A stretch of DNA of 64,000 nt from Flavobacterium filum DSM 17961. Its GTDB lineage: Bacteria; Bacteroidota; Bacteroidia; Flavobacteriales; Flavobacteriaceae. The stretch spans positions 1-64,000 of the forward strand of contig NZ_AUDM01000016.1 in NCBI RefSeq assembly GCF_000425465.1, written 5' to 3'. Shown here piece after piece: positions 3,211-50,994 of the stretch (its first letter is position 1; each line of letters begins with the position of its first letter). Below the pieces are notes generated by a model. The model was given only the letters and a program-made list of their open reading frames with translations. It made no database searches and was not told where the DNA came from. The position numbers were made by a program, and so were the translations under genes.

Positions 3211-3434
3211 GCTTTTTGACCTGCTTCGCAGGAGATTCCTATTTCGACTTCGTCATCTTGCGGAATGACAAAAAGATGGATTATCTTGCTTTTTGTCCTG
3301 CTTCGCAGGAGGTTCCTATTTCGACTTTGTCATCTTGCGGAATGACAAAAAGATGGATTATCTTGCTTTTTGTCCTGCTAAGCAGGAGGTTCCTATTTCG
3401 ACTTCGTCATCTTGCGGAATGACAAAAAGATAGA
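3211..3434. repeat. Three tandem copies of a 77-bp intergenic repeat
   Basis: Copies start at 3211, 3288 and 3365, so the period is exactly 77 bp, and they differ at only a few positions (for example CTTCGCAGG against CTAAGCAGG in the third). Each unit contains a small hairpin (CCTGC-TTC-GCAGG). The second and third units also have 9-bp inverted ends (CTTTTTGTC and GACAAAAAG). The region has no gene and lies between the cysteine desulfurase start and the GH97 stop. Confidence 0.92.
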
Positions 3435-3447
3435 ATTTCACTTTCGT

Positions 3448-3538
3448 ATTACCTATTACCCATTACCTATTACCTATTACCCATTACCTATTACCTATTA
3501 CCCATTGCCTATTGCCTATCTCCTAATACCTATTTCCC
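3448..3538. repeat. Heptamer array (ATTACCT / ATTACCC units)
   Basis: About 13 degenerate 7-bp units alternate between ATTACCT and ATTACCC, drifting to ATTGCCT and TAATACCT at the right end. The array stops exactly where the stop codon of the GH97 gene begins (3539). No coding potential is evident. The reverse complement of the same heptamer forms the gap at 61797-61829. Confidence 0.9.
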
Positions 3539-28561: not shown

Positions 28562-30757
28562 TTACAAAACAAGTAATCCTTGACCTTTAAGAGATTTAAG
28601 TTGTTTGGAGTACCAAAACAATTCGAAATCATCAAATTGTTTTTCAAAATCTTGCTTAACTTGAGAAAAAGTCAATGTTTTGGTATTGGTTACCGAAATT
28701 TTATCCAATAATTCAATCCACCAAATTGCTTTTTCTTTTTCTAGAGAAATTTCAACTGTTTCAATTTTGGAATGAAAAGTCAATTTCATCATTTCCCACG
28801 ATTGGCCTTTTTTAGATTTTGTAAATGATTCAGAGGAAGGCTTCCCTCCTATCCAAACTATTTTTGCAGATGGTTTTATGTGAAAATTATTTTCTTTTTC
28901 TAAACAAGAAAGAATATAATCCGGGGCAATTTTGGTTTTAGGAATTTTAAAATCGAACCACTCTTGCAACTCATAATCAAAGCAAATGCCATGCATATAA
29001 TTAAAAAGTGATTTTTTCAATCCGTAGCTGAATTTATCATGATTGATGCCGGTTTTGTCGGTAAACTGAATATCGTTATTGGCAAAAGTAATTTCGTTTT
29101 GCTGCGGAATGACACCAAATTCTTCGGGAAACATACCCACCGGACTGTGAGCTGTCATGGCAAATTGATGCCAAAAACCCGATTGTAGAATTCCTAATTC
29201 AAATAATTGACGAACCATTTCTAAACTATCTACCGTTTCCTGAATGGTTTGCGTAGGATAGCCATACATCAAATAAGCGTGTACCATAATGCCGGATTCT
29301 GTCAAGTTACGGGTGACTTGTGCCACTTGTTCAATTGTTACTCCTTTTTTAATGAGTTCTAAAAGTCGGTCGGATGCCACTTCTAATCCACCGGAAACGG
29401 CAATGCAACCGGAAGCATTAAGTAGCTGACACAAATCAGCGGTAAAACTTTTTTCAAAGCGAATGTTTGTCCACCAACTGACAGTCAGTTTTCGTCGTAG
29501 AATTTCCAACGCAACTTCTTTCATCAAAGCCGGAGGAGCCGCTTCATCCACAAAATGGAATCCGTTTTCTCCTGTTTGATTAATAAGTTCCTCCATTCGA
29601 TCGACCAATAATTTGGCGGCTATTGGTTCATACAATTTAATATAATCGAGTGAAATATCACAAAAAGTACATTTTCCCCAATAACAACCGTGGGCCATAG
29701 TGAGTTTATTCCAACGACCATCGCTCCATAGACTGTGCATTGGATTGGCAATTTCAATAACGGAAATGTACTTATCCAATTGCAAATCAGAATAATTGGG
29801 TGTGCCGACTTCGGATTGTTTGTAGTCCGGTTGGGTGGAATTGTTTTTGTAAACGACTTGATTGTTTTCGAGGAGGAAAGTACGTTTACATTGGTTGGAA
29901 GATATTCTTCCTTCGTCAAAATGACAAACTGCACGATGTAAAAGTTCAATGGGCAATTCTCCATCATCCAACGTGATAAAATCGAAAAATTCAAAGACGC
30001 GTTTATCCTTTAAATCACGTAATTCTGTGTTGGGAAAACCGCCTCCCATTGCTACTTTGATGTTGGAAAAATTGGTTTTGATTAATTGTGCACATCGAAA
30101 AGCACTGTACAAATTACCGGGAAACGGAACCGAGAAACAAACCAATTTAGGTTGAATTTCAGTAAGTTTTTGATTTAAAATGGAAAGCGTAATTTCATCA
30201 ATATAGGTTGGTTTTTGATTCAATTGATGATATAATTCGTCAAAGGAATTGGCACTTCGCCCTAATCGTTCGGCATAACGACTGAATCCAAAATTTTCAT
30301 CGACACACGCCACAATATAATCGGATAAATCTTCGAGGTATAGCGTAGCTAAATGTTTAGCTTTGTCTTGCATTCCCATAGTTCCAAACGCATAGTCCAT
30401 ATCATCCAACTGCTCAAAACGAGAAGCTTCAGGAAGAAAATTGCCGGAACAAATTTGACGAGCTAAGGTTGGATTCTTTCCTTGGAGAAAAGCAATTACA
30501 GTATCGATGGTTTGGATGTAATCGTTTTGTAAAGCAAATATTCTTTCTAGGTTGGGAGTTAGGAGTTGGGAGTTGGGAGTTTGGAAAATTCGCTCCAATC
30601 CTTTTTTTGAAAAAATTTCCAGAATCACTTCGATACCTAAATCCATCTGAAAAGAGGAAATATTTTTGGTGTTGAGAAAACCTTTCAAATAAGCTGTTGC
30701 CGGATACGGCGTATTCAGTTGGGTGAAAGGTGGTGTGATGAGCAATAAATCTTTCAA
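28562..30757 (-). CDS. B12-binding-type radical SAM protein
   Basis: The 731-aa protein has an N-terminal Rossmann-like part (LLLITPPFTQLNTPYPATAYL) that extends to a KLVCFSVPFPGN segment, as in B12-binding radical-SAM enzymes. The Fe-S motif C-x3-C-x2-C follows in CYWGKCTFCDIS. Its substrate is unknown. The start is TTG (30755-30757): no in-frame ATG gives this N-terminus, and a consensus promoter lies 16 bp upstream. A run of 7-bp repeats inside the gene (30551-30584) encodes an odd TPNSQLLTPN insertion between two LERIF segments. Confidence 0.87.
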   Translation of the reverse strand: MKDLLLITPPFTQLNTPYPATAYLKGFLNTKNISSFQMDLGIEVILEIFSKKGLERIFQTPNSQLLTPNLERIFALQNDYIQTIDTVIAFLQGKNPTLARQICSGNFLPEASRFEQLDDMDYAFGTMGMQDKAKHLATLYLEDLSDYIVACVDENFGFSRYAERLGRSANSFDELYHQLNQKPTYIDEITLSILNQKLTEIQPKLVCFSVPFPGNLYSAFRCAQLIKTNFSNIKVAMGGGFPNTELRDLKDKRVFEFFDFITLDDGELPIELLHRAVCHFDEGRISSNQCKRTFLLENNQVVYKNNSTQPDYKQSEVGTPNYSDLQLDKYISVIEIANPMHSLWSDGRWNKLTMAHGCYWGKCTFCDISLDYIKLYEPIAAKLLVDRMEELINQTGENGFHFVDEAAPPALMKEVALEILRRKLTVSWWTNIRFEKSFTADLCQLLNASGCIAVSGGLEVASDRLLELIKKGVTIEQVAQVTRNLTESGIMVHAYLMYGYPTQTIQETVDSLEMVRQLFELGILQSGFWHQFAMTAHSPVGMFPEEFGVIPQQNEITFANNDIQFTDKTGINHDKFSYGLKKSLFNYMHGICFDYELQEWFDFKIPKTKIAPDYILSCLEKENNFHIKPSAKIVWIGGKPSSESFTKSKKGQSWEMMKLTFHSKIETVEISLEKEKAIWWIELLDKISVTNTKTLTFSQVKQDFEKQFDDFELFWYSKQLKSLKGQGLLVL

Positions 30758-34224: not shown

Positions 34225-34490
34225 AAAATTTTTGTTTTTGTTACTGCTTACTCTGTTCGGTTTTCAGCTTTTCCCGTAATTAGATAATTTACATTTTATA
34301 AATATATCAAAAAATATAAATACTTTAAAATAATTTTATAATGATTTTTTTAATCCATAACTCCTTATATAGCTTCTTTCCAGGCTCAGATTGAAGTAGA
34401 AATCATCTTTGGTAAAGATTCTAACTTTAAAATGGAAAGAGGGAAAAAGTAAACTTTACGTAAACTAAAATCATGAAACCAAACAAAAAA
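34225..34490. other. AT-rich intergenic stretch without a gene
   Basis: Between the zinc-finger gene and ndk I see no frame with a convincing start, no repeat beyond the array at 34491 and no terminator. Stop codons are frequent in all frames. Confidence 0.6.
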
Positions 34491-34520
34491 ACTTCAAACC
34501 TGAAACTTGAAACTTGAAAC
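34491..34520. repeat. Heptamer array (TTGAAAC) in the ndk upstream region
   Basis: Four units (CTTCAAAC, CTGAAAC, TTGAAAC, TTGAAAC) with a 7-bp period lie directly before and within the ndk promoter. One unit supplies its -33 TTG. Confidence 0.75.
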
Positions 34521-34980: not shown

Positions 34981-35014
34981 TTAACTGTTGTCGGTTATCG
35001 GTTATCGGTTATCC
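34981..35014. repeat. Heptamer array (TCGGTTA), left arm of an inverted pair
   Basis: Starting on the base after the ndk stop codon, the sequence reads TTAACTG TTGTCGG TTATCGG TTATCGG TTATCC with a 7-bp period. The reverse complement of the array at 35087-35138 has the same GTTGTCGGTT/TCGGTTATC units. Confidence 0.85.
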
Positions 35015-35023
35015 GAAAAATAG

Positions 35024-35058
35024 AAAAAATCCCATTTCAAAACGAAGTGGGATTTTTT
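35024..35058. terminator. ndk terminator inside the array pair
   Basis: AATCCCA-TTTC and GAAG-TGGGATT pair around AAAAC with A-rich and T-rich flanks. It lies between the two arms of the heptamer array. Confidence 0.85.
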
Positions 35059-35086
35059 ATTTTGATAACAAATGTTAGACAGATTT

Positions 35087-35138
35087 CAGACAACTGACAA
35101 CACTCAACCGACAACAGATAACCGAGACAAGACAACTA
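35087..35138. repeat. Heptamer array, right arm, running into a stop codon
   Basis: Units such as ACAACTG, ACAACAC, CCGACAAC and GATAACCG repeat with a 7-bp period. They end over the stop codon of the DciA-like gene (35136-35138). Confidence 0.8.
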
Positions 35139-35432
35139 CCTCAACACCAACTCCCTCACCACTTCCTTCCGCAATTCATCATTCAACATGGTTATGATTT
35201 TTTGCTTTCCATAACTTAATTCTTCTCGCAAAACGGCTGAAGATAAAGTAACGTACAAAGTAGAACCTTTTAAGATTACTTCTTTTGTGTAGGTATTCAC
35301 ACCATTGCCCATCAACTCTTTCCATGCTTTTTCAACGTCAATTTTATCCATACCGGATTGTAGTTTATTGTTTTCAATAAACGCTTTCAACACTTCTGAA
35401 ATCGGACTATCGTTGTGCAATCTTTTACTCAT
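35136..35432 (-). CDS. DUF721 (DciA-like) protein
   Basis: The 98-aa protein matches the DUF721 family, whose characterised member DciA loads the replicative helicase. SPISEVLKAFIENNKLQSGMDKIDVEKAWKELMG and the strand pair LYVTLSSAVLREELSYGKQKI are typical. It lacks the long C-terminus of proteobacterial DciA. The start codon overlaps the stop of the upstream lipoprotein gene (TAATG), implying translational coupling. Confidence 0.85.
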   Translation of the reverse strand: MSKRLHNDSPISEVLKAFIENNKLQSGMDKIDVEKAWKELMGNGVNTYTKEVILKGSTLYVTLSSAVLREELSYGKQKIITMLNDELRKEVVRELVLR

Positions 35433-40297: not shown

Positions 40298-40380
40298 TGA
40301 GTTGTTGAGTGACTGAGTTGCTGAGATTTTTATTTTGCTAAATCACTCAGCTACTTAGTAACTCAGTGTCTCAGCTACTC
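40298..40380. repeat. Inverted pair of CTGAG-octamer arrays around an AT-rich core
   Basis: The left arm (40298-40327) repeats TTGAG/CTGAG every 8 bp (offsets 0, 8, 16, 24). The right arm (40342-40380) is the reverse complement type (CTCAG at 8-bp steps). The core between them is AT-rich (TTTTATTTTGCTAA). The left arm begins 5 bp from the cinA start codon. The same pattern is at 50896-50994. Confidence 0.88.
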
Positions 40381-40383
40381 CTT

Positions 40384-40521
40384 TAGCCCGGATAGAAGCG
40401 GAAAGCCCGCAGGAATTAAAACTTTTTTTTCTTCACTTTTTGGGGCGACCAAAGGAAGCCACGAAAAAGGGTTAGAAAAATAGGTTTTAAGGCCGAGGAC
40501 TTATAGCGGATAGCCGGAAAA
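40384..40521. repeat. Possible dispersed structured intergenic element
   Basis: This stretch starts TAGCCCGGATAGAAGCGG and ends AGCGGATAGCCGGAAAAGC, with GC-rich patches inside AT-rich DNA. I recall similar GGATAG.AGCGG-bounded elements between genes in other Flavobacterium genomes, but cannot check that here. No frame is convincing. Confidence 0.5.
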
Positions 40522-40526
40522 GCTTC

Positions 40527-43966: not shown

Positions 43967-45136
43967 TTAATCGTTAATCAAAATTACTTCTCCTCTGTCA
44001 TTGCTACTGTTGCTTCCAATCATAAAATTGCTTTGATTGGGAATAATTTTAAATGTTACTCTTTCACTTTTACAGCATTCCATAATGGAAATGATTGTTG
44101 AAAAAGGTAAATCATTTTGATCAAAAATAACTTCCACATTAGAATTAATTCCTTTTAAAAGCGAAGGTAATTCATTTTTAAAATTGATGTAAAGTCGACT
44201 TACATTTTTTCCTAACAATTTTTCTAGTTTTTCTTTTAATAACTCATTTTGAGAAATCAAAATATACTTGTCAATTTTTCTATTATTTTCAGTGGTTTTA
44301 TTTTTCTTTAAAAAAGCAAAAAAGAGACTTCCAACTTTCATAAAAACATTAAAAAAAGCTGACTTTTTGAAATGTTTGGCATAAAAATATTCCATTGCCT
44401 CTTGAAATCGCTTCATATACGTTCCGTCTTTTACGGTACTTTCGCCTTTGTAATGAATAACGGTGGCCTTTGCGAAATAGTAATTAACTTTATCTTTTTT
44501 CAACACCCTATAGCTCAAGTCGATGTCATCGGAATACATAAAACAGTTTTCGTCAAATCCACCCAATTCAGTATACAAATCACGCTTCATCAACATAAAA
44601 GCTCCAACTAAAATCTCAACGTTTCCGGATTGATTTTCGGTTAAATACTGAGCGTAATATTGATTGAAAAGTCGAACTTTTGGAAAAATTTTATACAACC
44701 CAAAAATCTTGGTAAACGCCACCCACGGTGTTGGAATACCTCTTTTGCTTTCTGGGAGGAATTTTCCGGTGCCGTCAACTAACTTGCAACCGATTATTCC
44801 GAATTGGGAGTTGGAAGTTGGGAGTTGAGAGGTAAAAATTTTAGTGAAAGTATCTTCTGCAACAACCGTATCGGGATTGAGAATGCAAATGTAATCACCT
44901 TTGGCCTGAGCCACTCCTATATTATTTCCCTTTGGAAATCCCGTATTTTCTCTATTCTCTATGAGTTTGATGTGCGGAAAACGCGTTTTCATCATTTGGC
45001 AACTATCGTCTGAAGAATTATTATCTACCACAATTATCTCACCATCAATGTGTTGCAAAGCAGCTTGAACGCTAAGCACAGATTGTTCTAAAAAATAACG
45101 AACGTTGTAATTGAGGATGATGACAGATAGTTGCAT
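43967..45136 (-). CDS. GT2 family glycosyltransferase with odd C-terminal extension
   Basis: MQLSVIILNYNVRYFLEQSV begins a GT-A domain. VVDNNSSDDSCQMM, ILNPDTVV and GAFMLMKRDLYTELGGFDENCFMYSDDIDLSYR follow. The product probably adds a sugar to surface glycan. After residue 265 the C-terminal 120 residues are Lys/Asn-rich and look unlike the catalytic part (KLLGKNVSRLYINFK, NSSNDRGEVILIND). A TAAATTTG box ends 4 bp before the ATG. Heptamer repeats at 44803-44830 encode a TSQLPTSNSQ run. The ParE-type toxin gene lies 10 bp upstream. Confidence 0.85.
   Translation of the reverse strand: MQLSVIILNYNVRYFLEQSVLSVQAALQHIDGEIIVVDNNSSDDSCQMMKTRFPHIKLIENRENTGFPKGNNIGVAQAKGDYICILNPDTVVAEDTFTKIFTSQLPTSNSQFGIIGCKLVDGTGKFLPESKRGIPTPWVAFTKIFGLYKIFPKVRLFNQYYAQYLTENQSGNVEILVGAFMLMKRDLYTELGGFDENCFMYSDDIDLSYRVLKKDKVNYYFAKATVIHYKGESTVKDGTYMKRFQEAMEYFYAKHFKKSAFFNVFMKVGSLFFAFLKKNKTTENNRKIDKYILISQNELLKEKLEKLLGKNVSRLYINFKNELPSLLKGINSNVEVIFDQNDLPFSTIISIMECCKSERVTFKIIPNQSNFMIGSNSSNDRGEVILIND
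44803..44830. repeat. TTGGGAG heptamer array inside the glycosyltransferase gene
   Basis: Units TTGGGAG, TTGGAAG, TTGGGAG and TTGAGAG follow each other with a 7-bp period and are in frame, encoding TSQLPTSNSQ-like residues on the minus strand. The same heptamer occurs in the radical SAM gene. Confidence 0.8.
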
Positions 45137-45669: not shown

Positions 45670-45785
45670 GGCTTTATGTTTAAAAAGTAAAAATAGTGAT
45701 TTATTATTTGGATTCATATAAAAATCAGAAGTTTTACTAATTCGTTTCAGAAAAAATAAAGCATTACTTTTGCACATTTAAAACC

Positions 45786-45821
45786 ATTGACTAATTGGCA
45801 AATTGCCACATTGACACATTA
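45786..45821. repeat. ATTG-type array abutting the ABC-F start codon
   Basis: Units CATTGACT, AATTGGCA, AATTGCCA, CATTGACA and CATT repeat with 7-8-bp spacing. The array ends 1 bp before the ATG at 45823. It lies after a TACTTTTG -7 box (45765-45772), so it would form the 5' UTR. Confidence 0.65.
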
Positions 45822-45822
45822 A

Positions 45823-47682
45823 ATGAATTATCTTTCCGTAGAAAATATATCCAAATCCTTCGGCGAACGCGTTTTGTTTGAGAACATTTCGTTTGGCATA
45901 AACAAAGACCAAAAAATTGCTTTTATAGCCAAAAATGGTTCAGGAAAAACAACCATTATGAACATTATTAATGGTTTTGATGAACCGGATACGGGTCAAG
46001 TGGTGGTTCGTAAAAATATTCGAATGGCTTTTTTGTCGCAAAAACCGAATTTGCAGGATGAATTGACCATTGAGGAAAGCGTTTTTGCCAGCGATAATGA
46101 AACGCTGAAAGTGATTGAGCAATACGAAAAAGCATTGGAAAACCCTGAAGATGAAGAAGCGTACCAAAAAGCGTTTGATTTAATGGATCAACACAATGCA
46201 TGGGATTTTGAAACGCAATTCAAGCAAATCTTGTTCAAATTGAAGTTGGAAGATTTTAAATTGAAAGTCAAAAGTCTTTCGGGTGGTCAGAAAAAGCGAC
46301 TTTCATTGGCCATCATTTTAATTAACCGTCCGGATTTATTGATTTTGGATGAGCCAACCAACCACTTGGATTTGGAGATGATTGAATGGTTGGAAGATTA
46401 TTTTGCCAAAGAAAACATCACGTTGTTTATGGTCACGCATGACCGTTTCTTTTTGGAACGTGTTTGTAACGAAATACTCGAATTAGACAACGGGAAATTA
46501 TATCAATACAAGGGAAATTACTCCTATTATTTGCAAAAAAAGGAAGAACGAATTGCTTCTGAAAATGCTAGTATCGACAAAGCTCAAAATCTTTTTGTGA
46601 AAGAATTGGCTTGGATGCGAAGACAACCGAAAGCGAGAACTACAAAATCGAAATCACGTCAGGATGATTTTTATGTAATTAAGGAAAAAGCCGAAAGCCG
46701 CCGAAAAGAAAATGTGGTGGAGTTGGAAATCAACATGGAACGCATGGGAAGCAAGATTATTGAGCTTCATAAATTGTATAAAAAGTTTAAAGACCGTGTG
46801 ATTTTAGACAATTTTTCATACGATTTTCAGCGTGGCGAACGCATTGGAATTATTGGAAAAAACGGCACCGGAAAATCGACTTTCTTAAATATTTTAACCA
46901 AAACGATGTTGCCTGATGCCGGAAAAGTGGTGATTGGTGATACGATTAAGGTGGGTTATTATACGCAAAGCGGCATTAATCCAAAACCGGGTCAGAAAGT
47001 GATTGATATTATTAAAGAGTATGGCGAATATATTCCGCTCACAAAAGGAAAAATCATTTCGGCTTCGCAATTGCTGGAACGATTTCTTTTTGATGCTAAA
47101 AAGCAATATGATTTTGTAGAAAAATTGAGCGGTGGTGAATTGAAACGATTGTATTTATGTACGGTTTTGATTCAGAATCCGAATTTCTTGATTTTGGATG
47201 AACCAACGAATGATTTAGATATTGTAACGTTGAATGTTTTGGAAAGTTTTTTATTGGATTTTCCCGGCTGTTTATTGGTGGTTTCGCACGATCGTTATTT
47301 TATGGATAAAATCGTCGATCACTTGTTCGTATTTAGAGGCGAAGGAGTCATTGAAGATTTTCCCGGAAATTATTCTGATTTTAGAGCGTATGAAGATAGT
47401 GCCGAACCCAAAAATTTATCGAACGTAAGTACCGAAAAAACAAACTGGAAAGAAAAGCAAGTTAAAGAAGGTCTAACATTTAACGAACAAAAAGAATTTC
47501 AAAAAATCGAACGCGAAATCAAAGATTTAGAATTTGAGAAAAAGCAAATTGAACAACTATTTGCCGATGGAAAAGTAGCTGATGATGCTATTGAGAAAAA
47601 AGCAAATGAGCTTAAAGCAATTATCAAGAAATTAGAAGATAAAGAAGAGCGTTGGTTTGAACTTTCTTCAAAAATGGAATAA
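45823..47682 (+). CDS. ABC-F family ATPase (translation factor type)
   Basis: The 619-aa soluble protein has two ABC cassettes (Walker A AKNGSGKTT and GKNGTGKST, with signatures LSGGQKKR and LSGGELKR). They are joined by a helical ARM linker with a basic RTTKSKSRQDDF segment, and a C-terminal coiled coil (about 540-619) follows. It lacks membrane parts, as ABC-F proteins do. Homologues (Uup-like) act on ribosomes or branched DNA; which applies is not decidable here. Confidence 0.93.
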   Translation: MNYLSVENISKSFGERVLFENISFGINKDQKIAFIAKNGSGKTTIMNIINGFDEPDTGQVVVRKNIRMAFLSQKPNLQDELTIEESVFASDNETLKVIEQYEKALENPEDEEAYQKAFDLMDQHNAWDFETQFKQILFKLKLEDFKLKVKSLSGGQKKRLSLAIILINRPDLLILDEPTNHLDLEMIEWLEDYFAKENITLFMVTHDRFFLERVCNEILELDNGKLYQYKGNYSYYLQKKEERIASENASIDKAQNLFVKELAWMRRQPKARTTKSKSRQDDFYVIKEKAESRRKENVVELEINMERMGSKIIELHKLYKKFKDRVILDNFSYDFQRGERIGIIGKNGTGKSTFLNILTKTMLPDAGKVVIGDTIKVGYYTQSGINPKPGQKVIDIIKEYGEYIPLTKGKIISASQLLERFLFDAKKQYDFVEKLSGGELKRLYLCTVLIQNPNFLILDEPTNDLDIVTLNVLESFLLDFPGCLLVVSHDRYFMDKIVDHLFVFRGEGVIEDFPGNYSDFRAYEDSAEPKNLSNVSTEKTNWKEKQVKEGLTFNEQKEFQKIEREIKDLEFEKKQIEQLFADGKVADDAIEKKANELKAIIKKLEDKEERWFELSSKME

Positions 47683-47684
47683 TT

Positions 47685-47784
47685 AGTTTTCAGTCGCAGT
47701 CGCAGTTTTCAGTCGCAGTCGCAGTCGCAGTTTTCAGTCGCAGTCGCAGTCGCAGTTTTCAATTGTAGTTTTCAGTCGCAATTT
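47685..47784. repeat. CAGTCG array, left arm flanking the four-helix-bundle gene
   Basis: Starting 2 bp after the ABC-F stop, CAGTCG/CAGTC units of 6 bp alternate with CAGTTTTCAGTC junctions. The arm contains two copies of a 34-bp block that reads CAGTTTTCAG, three TCGCAG units and TTTTCA. The opposite arm (48183-48264), reverse complemented, carries the same block with A instead of G at three points. Confidence 0.93.
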
Positions 47785-47814
47785 GATTATGATATAGTAT
47801 AAAAAGAATAAAAA

Positions 47815-48186
47815 ATGGATTTCAAAGAATTATTAGCCTATCAAAAAGCATTTTTATTAGCCATGGAAATTTATAAAATCAGTAATCTATTTCCAAAAGA
47901 AGAAAAATATTCATTAACTGATCAAGTACGACGATCATCAAGAAGTGTTTGTGCTAATATGGCGGAAGCCTATCGAAAAAGGAGATATGTTAATCATTTT
48001 ATAAGTAAGCTTACGGATTGCGATGGAGAAAATTCTGAAACTACTGTTTGGCTAGATTTTTCATTGGAATGTGGTTATATTTCAAATGAAATTCATTTAG
48101 ATTTAACATCAAAATCAAAAGAAATTGGAAAATTAATTAATTTCATGATTAATAATCCAGATAAATTTGGCTGTAATCCAAACTGA
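47815..48186 (+). CDS. Four-helix-bundle protein (TIGR02436 / 23S rRNA IVS-type)
   Basis: The 123-aa protein has four predicted helices and the family signature DQVRRSSRSVCANMAEAYRK, then FISKLTDCDGENSETTVWLDFSLECGYI. Related proteins are encoded in 23S rRNA intervening sequences and as the Avd accessory of diversity-generating retroelements; none is a known nuclease. This gene is enclosed by inverted CAGTC arrays, the right one overlapping its stop codon. The start is at ATG 47815. I saw no consensus promoter. Confidence 0.92.
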   Translation: MDFKELLAYQKAFLLAMEIYKISNLFPKEEKYSLTDQVRRSSRSVCANMAEAYRKRRYVNHFISKLTDCDGENSETTVWLDFSLECGYISNEIHLDLTSKSKEIGKLINFMINNPDKFGCNPN

Positions 48187-48264
48187 GACTAAGAAACTAT
48201 AACTGAAAACTGTGACTGTGACTGTGACTGAAAACTGTGACTGAGACTGAGACTGAGACTAAAA
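48183..48264. repeat. CAGTC array, right arm flanking the four-helix-bundle gene
   Basis: This arm is made of GACTGTGACTG and GACTGAGACTG units with AACTGAAAACTG junctions. It begins over the stop codon of the four-helix-bundle gene and ends directly before the ATG of the methyltransferase (48265). It pairs as an imperfect inverted repeat with 47685-47784. Confidence 0.93.
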
Positions 48265-49107
48265 ATGATACAAATTATTAAATCATATTTTAAATTTCTA
48301 CTAAATTCCAAAAACGAACATGGAATACATTCTCCATTTGTGTTTGATTTGGTGACGAAATGTTTTTATGATAAAACGAATTACTATGAATATGAAAATA
48401 TTATTGATTATAAAAAATCTTTAATAGCAGACAAAACTAAAATTAACGTAACTGATTTTGGAGCAGGTTCACGAGTTTTCAAAACCAATCAACGAGAAGT
48501 ATCAAAAATTGCTAAAGTTGCCGGTATTTCAACTTACAGAGCAAAACTACTATTTAGATTAATTAATTATTTTCAACCATCAACATTTTTAGAACTTGGA
48601 ACATCTTTAGGTATTGCCACATATTCTGCATCAATTGCTTTAAAAAACACAAAAATTATTTCAGTTGAAGGATGTAAGGAAACTTCACTATTCACAAGCA
48701 ATAAATTTTTAAAATGTTTTAATTTAGAACAGTTAAAAAATATAAATTTTATTAATTCAGAATTTGAAATATTTCTCCATAATTTTGATAAATCGTCATT
48801 TTCGGATACCGATTGGAATATGGTTTATTTTGATGGAAATCACTCTAAAGTAGCAACTTTAAAATACTTTGATATTCTAATTGAAACAACTACAAATAAA
48901 ACCATTTGGATTTTCGATGACATTCACTGGTCCAAAGACATGGAAGAAGCTTGGGAAATCATTAAAAATCATCCAAAAGTCACCGTTACTATTGATACTT
49001 TTCAATGGGGAATCGTCTTTTTCAGAACAGAACAAACCAAAGAACATTTCATTATTAATCCAAATAAAACCATCAGTTCACATCTTTTTGAACGAATTCG
49101 AATTTGA
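48265..49107 (+). CDS. Class I SAM-dependent methyltransferase, O-methyltransferase-like
   Basis: The 280-aa product starts MIQIIKSYFKFLLNSKNEHGIHSPFVFDLVTKCFYD. FLELGTSLGIATYSASIAL is the SAM loop, followed by SVEGCKETS and MVYFDGNHSKVATLKYFDIL and IWIFDDIHWSKDMEEAW. The substrate is unknown. These begin-with-HSPF proteins are common in Bacteroidota. The start codon touches the end of the right array. Confidence 0.85.
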   Translation: MIQIIKSYFKFLLNSKNEHGIHSPFVFDLVTKCFYDKTNYYEYENIIDYKKSLIADKTKINVTDFGAGSRVFKTNQREVSKIAKVAGISTYRAKLLFRLINYFQPSTFLELGTSLGIATYSASIALKNTKIISVEGCKETSLFTSNKFLKCFNLEQLKNINFINSEFEIFLHNFDKSSFSDTDWNMVYFDGNHSKVATLKYFDILIETTTNKTIWIFDDIHWSKDMEEAWEIIKNHPKVTVTIDTFQWGIVFFRTEQTKEHFIINPNKTISSHLFERIRI

Positions 49108-50047: not shown

Positions 50048-50901
50048 AAATTGGAATACTTACTTGTGCCCGATTACCTGAACTTTTAGAATCGGATCAA
50101 CAATTAATTCCGCTTTTTGCGAAGGAAAATATTACTGCAAAAGCCGCTATTTGGGATGATGAAACGGTTGATTGGACCGAATTTGACTACCTTATTTTCA
50201 GAAATACATGGGATTATTATCAAAAAGAAGAAGTATTTAATTCATGGTTACATAAAATTGAATTATTGGGAATTAAAACGTTCAACCCGATTTCAGTTAT
50301 CCAAAAAAACAAACATAAATTTTATTTAAAAGAATTAGAAAAAGAAGGAATTTCAATACTTCCTTCGATTTTTTTAGAAAAAAATTCAACTTCAAATTTA
50401 CACAATGTAATTCCGAAAAGTTGGGAGAAAATGGTTATCAAACCAGCATTTTCTGCCGGAAGTTATTTAACAAAATTAATTGACCGAACTGAAATTGAAT
50501 CCATCCAAACAGAATTCAAAGAACATTTTGCAACCAAAGATTTTCTCATTCAGGAATTTCGTCCGGAAATAAAAGAATTGGGCGAAACCTCTTTTATCTT
50601 TTTTGATGGGAAATTTTCGCACGCTGTTAACAAAAAACCGGTAGAAAATGATTTTCGAGTTCAAATTCAATACGGTGGAAAATATACATTAATTGAACCC
50701 AATGCTGATTTACTACTTCAAGCTGAATTAATTCTATCAAAAATTCCTGAAAAATTGCTTTATGCTCGTGTGGATGGCATTGTCATTGAAAACAAACTTC
50801 ATTTAATGGAAATCGAACTCATTGAACCCGATTTGTATTTTGATTTAGCGGATGGAGCAAGAGAACGATTTGTGGAAGCTTTTTTAAAAGTTATTGAGTA
50901 G
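50044..50901 (+). CDS. ATP-grasp (RimK/GshB-like) protein
   Basis: The 285-aa protein opens MKIGILTCARLPELLESDQQL and continues through FDYLIFRNTWDYY. PKSWEKMVIKPAFSAGSYLTK follows, then the metal segment LYARVDGIVIENKLHLMEIELIEPDLYFDLADGARERF, where RVDG and E-x-E are ATP-grasp Mg ligands. It probably ligates an amino acid or peptide, and the substrate is unknown. Overlap with the small gene upstream and an array at its stop codon mark the neighbourhood. Confidence 0.85.
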   Translation: MKIGILTCARLPELLESDQQLIPLFAKENITAKAAIWDDETVDWTEFDYLIFRNTWDYYQKEEVFNSWLHKIELLGIKTFNPISVIQKNKHKFYLKELEKEGISILPSIFLEKNSTSNLHNVIPKSWEKMVIKPAFSAGSYLTKLIDRTEIESIQTEFKEHFATKDFLIQEFRPEIKELGETSFIFFDGKFSHAVNKKPVENDFRVQIQYGGKYTLIEPNADLLLQAELILSKIPEKLLYARVDGIVIENKLHLMEIELIEPDLYFDLADGARERFVEAFLKVIE

Positions 50902-50994
50902 CTGAGATACTGAGTGGCTGAGTAAAAAAAACTTCGTAAATTAGCCAAATAAAAACTCAGCAACTTAGCTACTCAGAACCTCAGCAACTAACTT
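50896..50994. repeat. Inverted pair of CTGAG-octamer arrays
   Basis: The left arm (50896-50926) holds CTGAG at 8-bp spacing and includes the ATP-grasp stop codon. The AT-rich core follows. The right arm (50955-50994) holds CTCAGC, CTTAGC, CTCAG and CTCAGC and ends exactly at the ATG of the adenosyltransferase (50995). The same octamer and design occur at 40298-40380. Confidence 0.9.

Follow-up and report, generated by a model that had tools for sequence, protein, structure and literature searches.

The window, i.e., the whole 64,000-nt stretch of Flavobacterium filum DSM 17961 analyzed here (contig NZ_AUDM01000016.1, positions 1 to 64,000), contains three genes on the plus strand that concern us: one encoding an ABC-F-like ATPase with two ABC_tran domains and an ABC_tran_CTD domain (45823-47682; Pfam), an S23/IVP gene (TIGR02436, PF05635) encoding a four-helix-bundle protein of 123 amino acids (47815-48186; profile searches), and one belonging to the Methyltransf_24 family (48265-49107; Pfam). 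The S23/IVP gene is enclosed by two arrays of short repeats on the same strand, a 5′ arm at approximately 47683-47784 and an inverted 3′ arm at approximately 48180-48260, both delimited from the sequence, a repeat search, and TRF. The ABC-F-like gene ends with a stop codon at 47680-47682, and the 5′ arm, a tandem array mixing CAGTCG (6 bp) with CAGTTTT (7 bp), begins at the next nucleotide. The 3′ arm (ACTGTG/ACTGAG/ACTGAAA) shows CAGTCA/CAGTCT 6-mers and a 7-mer when reverse complemented, both arms being mixtures of 6- and 7-bp units. It covers the stop codon of the S23/IVP gene and stops 4 nt short of the ATG of the Methyltransf_24 gene (48265). A preliminary description of this DNA had claimed two arms of about 100 and 80 bp built of CAGTC-type units, a 34-bp block with three G-to-A differences between them, and a right arm that overlaps the stop codon of the gene and reaches the next start codon; all of these were recovered, the last with the 4-nt distance just given.

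The match between the arms is far beyond chance, since its inverted-arm score is 93 (p < 0.001), compared with a median of 18 and a 99th percentile of 33 for mismatched pairings of the 5′ and 3′ flanks of other loci. The best ungapped pair detected by the repeat search spans 63 nt with 87% complementarity, and the RNA of the element is predicted to fold with a z score of -11.4 (20 shuffles). This copy lies outside rRNA, between two protein genes, and Rfam at the gathering threshold found no rRNA in the window.

The assignment of the enclosed gene to TIGR02436, likewise made in the preliminary description, holds with 98.6 bits against a cutoff of 24 bits, and the PF05635 match reaches 105.1 bits (cutoff, 33.8; E = 2.8e-30). 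By sequence, its relatives in the PDB are 2rld (E = 2.3e-8) and 2gsc (E = 3.3e-7). At E ≤ 0.001, the only Pfam matches of the gene are PF05635 and bAvd (41.7 bits; cutoff, 40), and no recognized catalytic or transposase domain, including Y1 (PF01797), was found at that level. With the Avd equivalog model DivGenRetAVD (NF033474), the protein scores 32.9 bits, below the 80-bit cutoff. The protein is under purifying selection, the median dN/dS in the window subfamily being 0.12 over 93 of 153 pairs, with the other pairs saturated. Several polar residues are nearly invariant in 203 aligned sequences (Q37, E51, and E75, 100% after rounding; S44, 99%). Of 198 genomes sampled from the phylum, 153 had S23/IVP genes, as did all 31 genomes of the genus. 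The available text of PMC4990558 cites the Xanthomonas S23 protein as pentameric and gives S23/IVP proteins no known function.

Inverted arrays at other S23 genes

The own genome (G000) carries nine TIGR02436 genes, and each of them is preceded by a short-unit array and followed by the reverse complement of that array. The units, of 6, 7, or 8 bp, differ among the nine genes: AGTTGCTG/AGTAGCTG, GATGGGT, AGTAATT, GATTGTTA, TTAGAAGT, TAGAAAA, CAGTCG, AATTTGTC, and AGTTGGG. When the 300-bp 5′ flank of each gene was compared with the reverse complement of its 3′ flank, with mismatched locus pairs as the null, all nine passed at p < 0.03.

The first run of this arm test gave p < 0.05 at 45 of 67 S23 loci. 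A larger set comprised 131 loci of the genus and the phylum, mostly best-scoring matches, with 60 picked down the match lists and four taken from the junction that we read as sdhA-sdhB; of 132 matches within the limits of score and length, one was removed because of a short flank or as a duplicate. In this set, 94 loci reached p < 0.05 and 61 reached p < 0.01, and the median arm score was 33, versus 18 for mismatched pairs. As controls, 43 of 325 ordinary genes on C1, a contig of the own genome, reached p < 0.05 and 3 reached p < 0.01; in direct orientation, the flanks of the 131 loci did so in 32 and 13 cases, respectively. Right-polarity chains (AG or CT) were present on both sides at 82 of the 131 S23 loci versus 14 of the 325 control genes, and both chains were of the wrong polarity at 14 of the 131. 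Among the 37 loci failing the test at p < 0.05, 34 had a right-polarity chain on at least one side and 12 had a wrong-polarity chain. Within the window-type subfamily, the arm-match score was at least 29 at 28 of 30 loci.

The arms extend over many phyla. The best 80 of 581 relatives in named genomes included 76 with a usable gene and flanks, and 58 of these reached p < 0.05. Grouped by record title, with many of the loci coming from metagenome-assembled genomes, the Bacteroidota loci of this best-80 set passed at p < 0.05 in 40 of 53 cases (p < 0.01 in 25) and the others in 18 of 23 (p < 0.01 in 14). The passing loci outside Bacteroidota include KSB1, Nitrospirae, Desulfobacteraceae, SAR324, Acidobacteria, Chloroflexi, Oscillospiraceae, Omnitrophota, and Kiritimatiellaeota. 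The inverted arrays around S23 genes are real and general, and the check set by the preliminary description, whether homologs have inverted arrays of their own motif, came out in favor in all three sets. The breadth of the pattern was not part of that description, nor were its general placement between stop and start codons and the tie to rRNA intervening sequences by type of arm. Two S23 elements presumably lie between groES and groEL (L274) and between guaB and guaA (L275), genes that we named by reading the sequences. At another locus (L283), from a record titled as a Limnohabitans MAG, the downstream gene resembles the thiolase that adjoins the own-genome gene L006, and for this reason the contig may be misplaced and belong to Flavobacterium.

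Copies also occur on plasmids. A relative of one S23 protein was found in 31 plasmid records; of 11 copies examined, 6 scored above the 95th percentile of their own mismatched pairs. Two cyanobacterial plasmid elements (L378 and L384) lie between genes annotated as cas6 and cas4, and another plasmid copy (L380) lies between two ribonucleotide reductase genes. At L384, a type I-D cas1 gene is annotated next after the cas6/cas4 element. Phage records gave no matches to the one S23 protein searched for, L017.

Each protein lineage carries its own arm unit. Over 97 armed loci at nonorthologous sites, protein identity was correlated with arm similarity (Mantel r = 0.29; the maximum of 2,000 permutations was 0.11), and under a strict site filter the unit was shared in 15 of 18 pairs with at least 70% identity at different sites, compared with 24 of 3,708 pairs below 45%. 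Near relatives of the window protein occupy other sites with their arm unit unchanged; the nearest (78 to 82% identity; L289 to L294) have the same unit as the window element, and neither an ABC-F nor a methyltransferase gene was found within 1.5 kb of them. The period over 141 scored S23 arms was 7 in 103, 8 in 33, 6 in 3, and 9 in 2, and the heptamer consensus is AGTnnTn. The arms also have a fixed polarity: read in the 5′ sense, AG exceeded CT at 77 of 94 loci and was exceeded at 8, with 9 tied (77 of 85 untied loci). At orthologous sites, the arms matched better within a locus than across loci in 81 of 93 pairs and worse in 10, so both arms change together.

Junction states and gene-less arrays

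The preliminary description had suggested comparing occupied and empty sites, and full, gene-less, and empty states were indeed found at the same junctions in relatives. The sdhA-sdhB junction, as we read it, yielded 30 loci from 61 genomes searched, the own genome included. Fifteen of them were empty (7 to 15 nt including the stop codon), five were full (428 to 450 nt), seven held a gene-less two-armed unit (76 to 97 nt), two held another gene, and one was unreadable. The full elements at L068, L077, and L083 encode similar proteins, yet both arms of L077 are composed of AGGCAAT rather than AGTAATT. At L072 and L088, this junction is occupied by a longer insert of another kind, which has an open frame and shows no obvious arrays. 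No target-site duplication was seen here, where the short empty gaps leave little to align.

The junction of the window element itself gave 30 loci from 61 genomes, 18 of which had the ABC-F gene upstream and the methyltransferase gene; these 18 included one 12-nt gap and, by reading, seven gene-less two-armed units of other families. The junction upstream of the gene that we take to be thyA was less informative, since the gene on its upstream side could not be found in most relatives among the matches listed. Orthologous junctions are empty, occupied, or gene-less in different species. Alternating states of this kind are what movement would predict, gain and loss being read from different species, although the junctions could look alike if old insertions had been precisely lost.

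Gene-less arrays of the resident units, both one-armed and two-armed, are present elsewhere in the genome. Contig C1 (91.5% coding) and the window, together 463 kb or about one-seventh of the genome, contained 74 short arrays by TRF, 70 of which remained after excluding four at S23 genes. At a score of at least 30, 22 of the 70 fit the nine own units, each of which was matched at least once, whereas nine-gene sets drawn from other genomes of the genus matched a mean of 4.0 arrays, and none of 5,000 such sets reached the sum of the own set. Lowering the score to at least 28 gave 24 own-unit solo arrays, 23 of them intergenic.

Several of these arrays lie in the window. A gene-less two-armed unit of the AGTAGCTG type, the unit of the own-genome gene L001, is located at 50894-50989 (predicted RNA fold, z = -5.1), where it fills the gap from the stop codon of one gene to the start codon of the next. 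Solo arrays detected by TRF are TATTACC at 3447-3534 (unit family of L002; score, 33), GTTGGGA at 30551-30585 (unit family of L009; score, 35), which is inside an open reading frame of a simple gene caller, and TTGGGAG at 44804-44831, a weaker match to the L009 family (score, 23). The array survey added CATTGACA at 45785-45820 (unit family of L008; score, 40), which fills a 45-nt gap between divergent genes. A gap near position 100770 of C1 holds nested arms of several families, and for several solo arrays no partner arm is visible.

Some features near these arrays stand apart. Solo families of the GTTTCAA/AACTTGA and CAGACAACCGACAA types match all nine own S23 units poorly (window, 34489-34520 and 34987-35162; C1, 198611, 258588, 330667, and 389954) and are possibly remnants of lost S23 genes. 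Almost three copies of a 77-bp tandem repeat adjoin the TATTACC array at 3211-3431. A Flavo-1 RNA (RF01705; 43.4 bits; gathering score, 42) at 40381-40524 follows a TGAGTTGC array (40298-40325) by 55 bp.

The link between array and gene was also seen across genomes. A 16-letter pattern of the window type, searched in 199 genomes, was present in all 20 genomes with a gene at least 70% identical, including one (G246) in which it is partial and broken, and in 65 of the 179 others (Fisher p ~ 1e-8, not corrected for kinship); its reversed control gave no matches in the 199 genomes. A reversed control pattern occurred 8 times in G133, a genome of the family, in effect as an AGTCAAT heptamer array, so even a control can meet an array family. 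The own genome has nine copies of the window-type pattern, three of them at the window element. Many copies were found in three genomes that have no close gene (29 in G249, 26 in G309, and 22 in G331), which either speak against a strict dependence on the gene or show gene loss.

A proposed mobile element and its alternatives

We propose, at a probability of roughly 0.7, that the segment at 47683-48260 is one copy of a class of small mobile elements that would have spread into the short gaps between co-transcribed genes. Such an element would consist of a 5′ array, an S23/IVP gene, and the 5′ array type in inverted form. An S23 pentamer would recognize its own arm unit, as DNA or RNA, and would promote the copying or insertion of array-ended pieces, i.e., its own element and, in trans, the gene-less ones. 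Because the protein has no recognized catalytic domain, the own genome has no reverse transcriptase match, and two genomes of the genus (G012 and G026) have neither a reverse transcriptase nor a Y1 match, we propose that the chemistry would be supplied by host enzymes of replication, repair, or RNA processing recruited by the pentamer. That the S23 protein itself binds or moves the arrays is an inference here, as in the preliminary description. The IVP would be expressed through read-through of the host operon, and pairing of the arms that abut the stop and start codons would keep the two host reading frames close, perhaps making insertions tolerable.

The positions of the S23 genes bear on this proposal. 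Both neighbors were called at 125 of the 131 loci, the other 6 being left aside; in the 125, the S23 gene was co-directional with both neighbors in 115, compared with a baseline of 54% on contig C1, and with the upstream gene in 123. At 83 armed co-directional loci, the median distance is 1 nt from the upstream stop codon to the beginning of the 5′ arm and 10 nt from the end of the 3′ arm to the next start codon. Arm pairing could return these two host codons to close proximity. Co-direction is not strict, since three of ten plasmid copies with annotated neighbors (L380, L381, and L382) run antisense to both of them.

Alternatively, the element may be an intervening sequence acting at the level of RNA, with the arms kept for a transcript stem that is cut by RNase III or joins the stop and start codons, and with mobility being incidental or proceeding via RNA. 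This is compatible with a mobile element and does not exclude it; as the explanation of the arms we consider it possible but doubtful. The family and size of the protein, the terminal stem, and RNase III excision are as in rRNA intervening sequences (available text of PMC4990558), an Azospirillum S23 gene with heptamer arms lies in 23S rRNA (see below), and both the predicted fold of the window RNA and the prevailing co-direction argue in the same direction. However, arm mismatches on the transcribed strand comprised 72 G-U versus 98 A-C, and with no excess of G-U pairs we do not claim selection for an RNA stem. The solo arrays that have no visible partner arm and the copies antisense to both neighbors also speak against it.

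Another explanation is that the S23 protein is a transcriptional or posttranscriptional regulator, with its own arms being autoregulatory, the solo arrays forming its regulon, and arrays that arose by slippage being kept by selection. Many arrays abut start or stop codons, translational regulation has been proposed for TAACTGA arrays (in the available text of PMC4679880), and the unit tracks a protein under purifying selection, all of which would fit a regulator. We nevertheless find it unlikely, for it leaves unexplained why the gene sits inside the arrays at many unrelated junctions, and why empty, gene-less, and full states alternate, and families replace one another, at a single junction.

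The S23 gene might also be a passive cargo of autonomous slippage arrays that spread by recombination, template switching, or ectopic gene conversion, with the gene hitchhiking and the arms being homogenized by template switching. The joint change of both arms at orthologous sites would be expected from this, and the array families without a matching gene in the own genome, together with the window-type arrays in 65 of the 179 genomes lacking a close gene, are consistent with it. Against it, the unit follows the protein lineage at different sites, the solo arrays fit the units of resident genes and not those of related genomes, and the AG-over-CT polarity of the 5′ arm is fixed, making a passive role of the gene quite improbable in our judgment.

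Finally, a dependence on a retroelement or insertion sequence, in which a reverse transcriptase (as for Avd in diversity-generating retroelements) or a Y1 transposase encoded elsewhere supplies the chemistry, is very improbable: the bAvd and DivGenRetAVD scores mark Avd as a distant relative and PF01797 has two weak matches in the own genome, one of them 0.1 bit above the cutoff, but PF00078 has no match in the own genome or in 12 of the 31 genus genomes, all 31 with S23 genes, and G012 (99% complete; 2 S23 genes) and G026 (90% complete; 7 S23 genes) have neither a PF00078 nor a PF01797 match. This presence/absence pattern leaves the dependence unsupported, although helpers may have been lost later or may sit in missing parts of the genomes.

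Relation to rRNA intervening sequences and known repeats

Under the proposed mobile element, the intervening sequence of 23S rRNA would be the same element located in rRNA. One case was found on plasmid AZO_p2 of Azospirillum lipoferum 4B, where an S23 gene (L388, 1440-1960) lies within 23S rRNA (Rfam LSU_rRNA_bacteria, 2520.7 bits). Its 5′ arm reads CAGAGGA CGGATGA CAGAGGA CGGAGGA and its 3′ arm is of the CTGTCTT type, with the polarity seen in the operon elements. The automatic arm score of this single rRNA example is low (20) because the assumed start codon is inside the 5′ array. In Coxiella, an S23 gene lies between 28-bp terminal inverted repeats in a 428-nt intervening sequence, which RNase III excises, and the available text of the same source calls the origin of such sequences unclear and cites mobility as a hypothesis (PMC4990558). 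The window element shares with them the PF05635/TIGR02436 reading frame, a unit of about 430 nt, and terminal inverted repeats capable of forming a stem, as its 63-nt arm pair and predicted fold indicate. Unlike rRNA intervening sequences, it lies between protein genes and not in 23S rRNA; it is one of nine in this genome, its arms are gene-specific tandem arrays, copies lacking the gene exist in trans, and relatives have empty sites. Among known systems, the rRNA intervening sequence is the one relative of the element class.

The analogy with REP/RAYT systems drawn in the preliminary description holds in organization. As the available texts on REP/RAYT systems and REPINs describe them, these too have a gene inside its own repeats, gene-less copies elsewhere that are mostly intergenic, and a repeat type that tracks the protein (PMC3116915, PMC8266576, and PMC3733652). 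However, RAYTs have a Y1 transposase (PF01797), while the window element has none and carries a four-helix-bundle gene, and REP repeats are palindromes of 20 to 40 bp, while the S23 repeats are tandem arrays of 6- to 8-bp units. Avd of diversity-generating retroelements is a distant sequence relative, the window protein falling below the Avd equivalog cutoff, and differs in having a reverse transcriptase partner, the own genome having no PF00078 match. Like MITEs and insertion sequences, the S23 elements have inverted ends and nested arms, occur with or without a gene, and show both empty and occupied sites; unlike them, they have no transposase, and their arms are tandem arrays of variable length.

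Heptamer arrays have been described before. MacGregor (2015) reported TAACTGA arrays in Beggiatoaceae, Cyanobacteria, and five Bacteroidetes with no transfer mechanism found, as far as the available text goes, and suggested, among other options, a mobile element in the form of a repeat-binding protein, none being identified there, besides the proposal of translational regulation (PMC4679880). The terms S23, four helix, and intervening sequence are absent from PMC4679880. The TAACTGA arrays and the S23 arrays are of the same kind, with units of about 7 bp, a mostly intergenic location, and often a position beside start codons. The cyanobacterial STRR repeats likewise belong to this kind of array. 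In G157, the array that forms the 5′ arm of an S23 gene is of the TAACTGA type. Among 15 distinct TAACTGA arrays fetched from Bacteroidota, this close neighborhood (an S23 gene within 1.5 kb) was found for 1 and not for the other 14, and G118 has a TAACTGA array and no TIGR02436 match.

In two F. columnare genomes, a cluster of guanylate kinase, four helix bundle, and nicotinate-nucleotide adenylyltransferase is listed among phage elements (PMC5524665, Table 5, in the part available); this cluster could instead represent an S23 element that sits within an operon. In a search of mostly open-access literature, with few preprints and subscription papers, no title or beginning of an abstract among the matches listed joins an S23 gene with arrays. 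No mobile element known to us has gene-specific tandem arrays as arms on either side of a four-helix-bundle gene that is not a transposase, and for that reason we regard the class as new; it is undescribed in the literature, as far as searched.

In its widest form, the proposal is that of a minimal element present in many phyla, in which a transposase-free S23 pentamer would read a unit code, copy array-ended pieces into the stop/start gaps of operons, and thereby seed many of the short tandem arrays of Bacteroidota and Cyanobacteria that still lack an explanation, with the rRNA intervening sequences being copies that landed in rRNA; we give this wide form about even odds. Joining the S23 proteins with the heptamer arrays would give both a testable role and would offer the heptamer arrays of Bacteroidota and Cyanobacteria a source that is missing in the available text of their earlier description (PMC4679880). 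The rRNA intervening sequences are suggested to be one niche of a wider element, and insertions of S23 elements are suggested to persist inside apparent core operons. Finally, with several such elements in each genome, proteins and their matching recognition units would form a natural series in which a recognition code might be deciphered.
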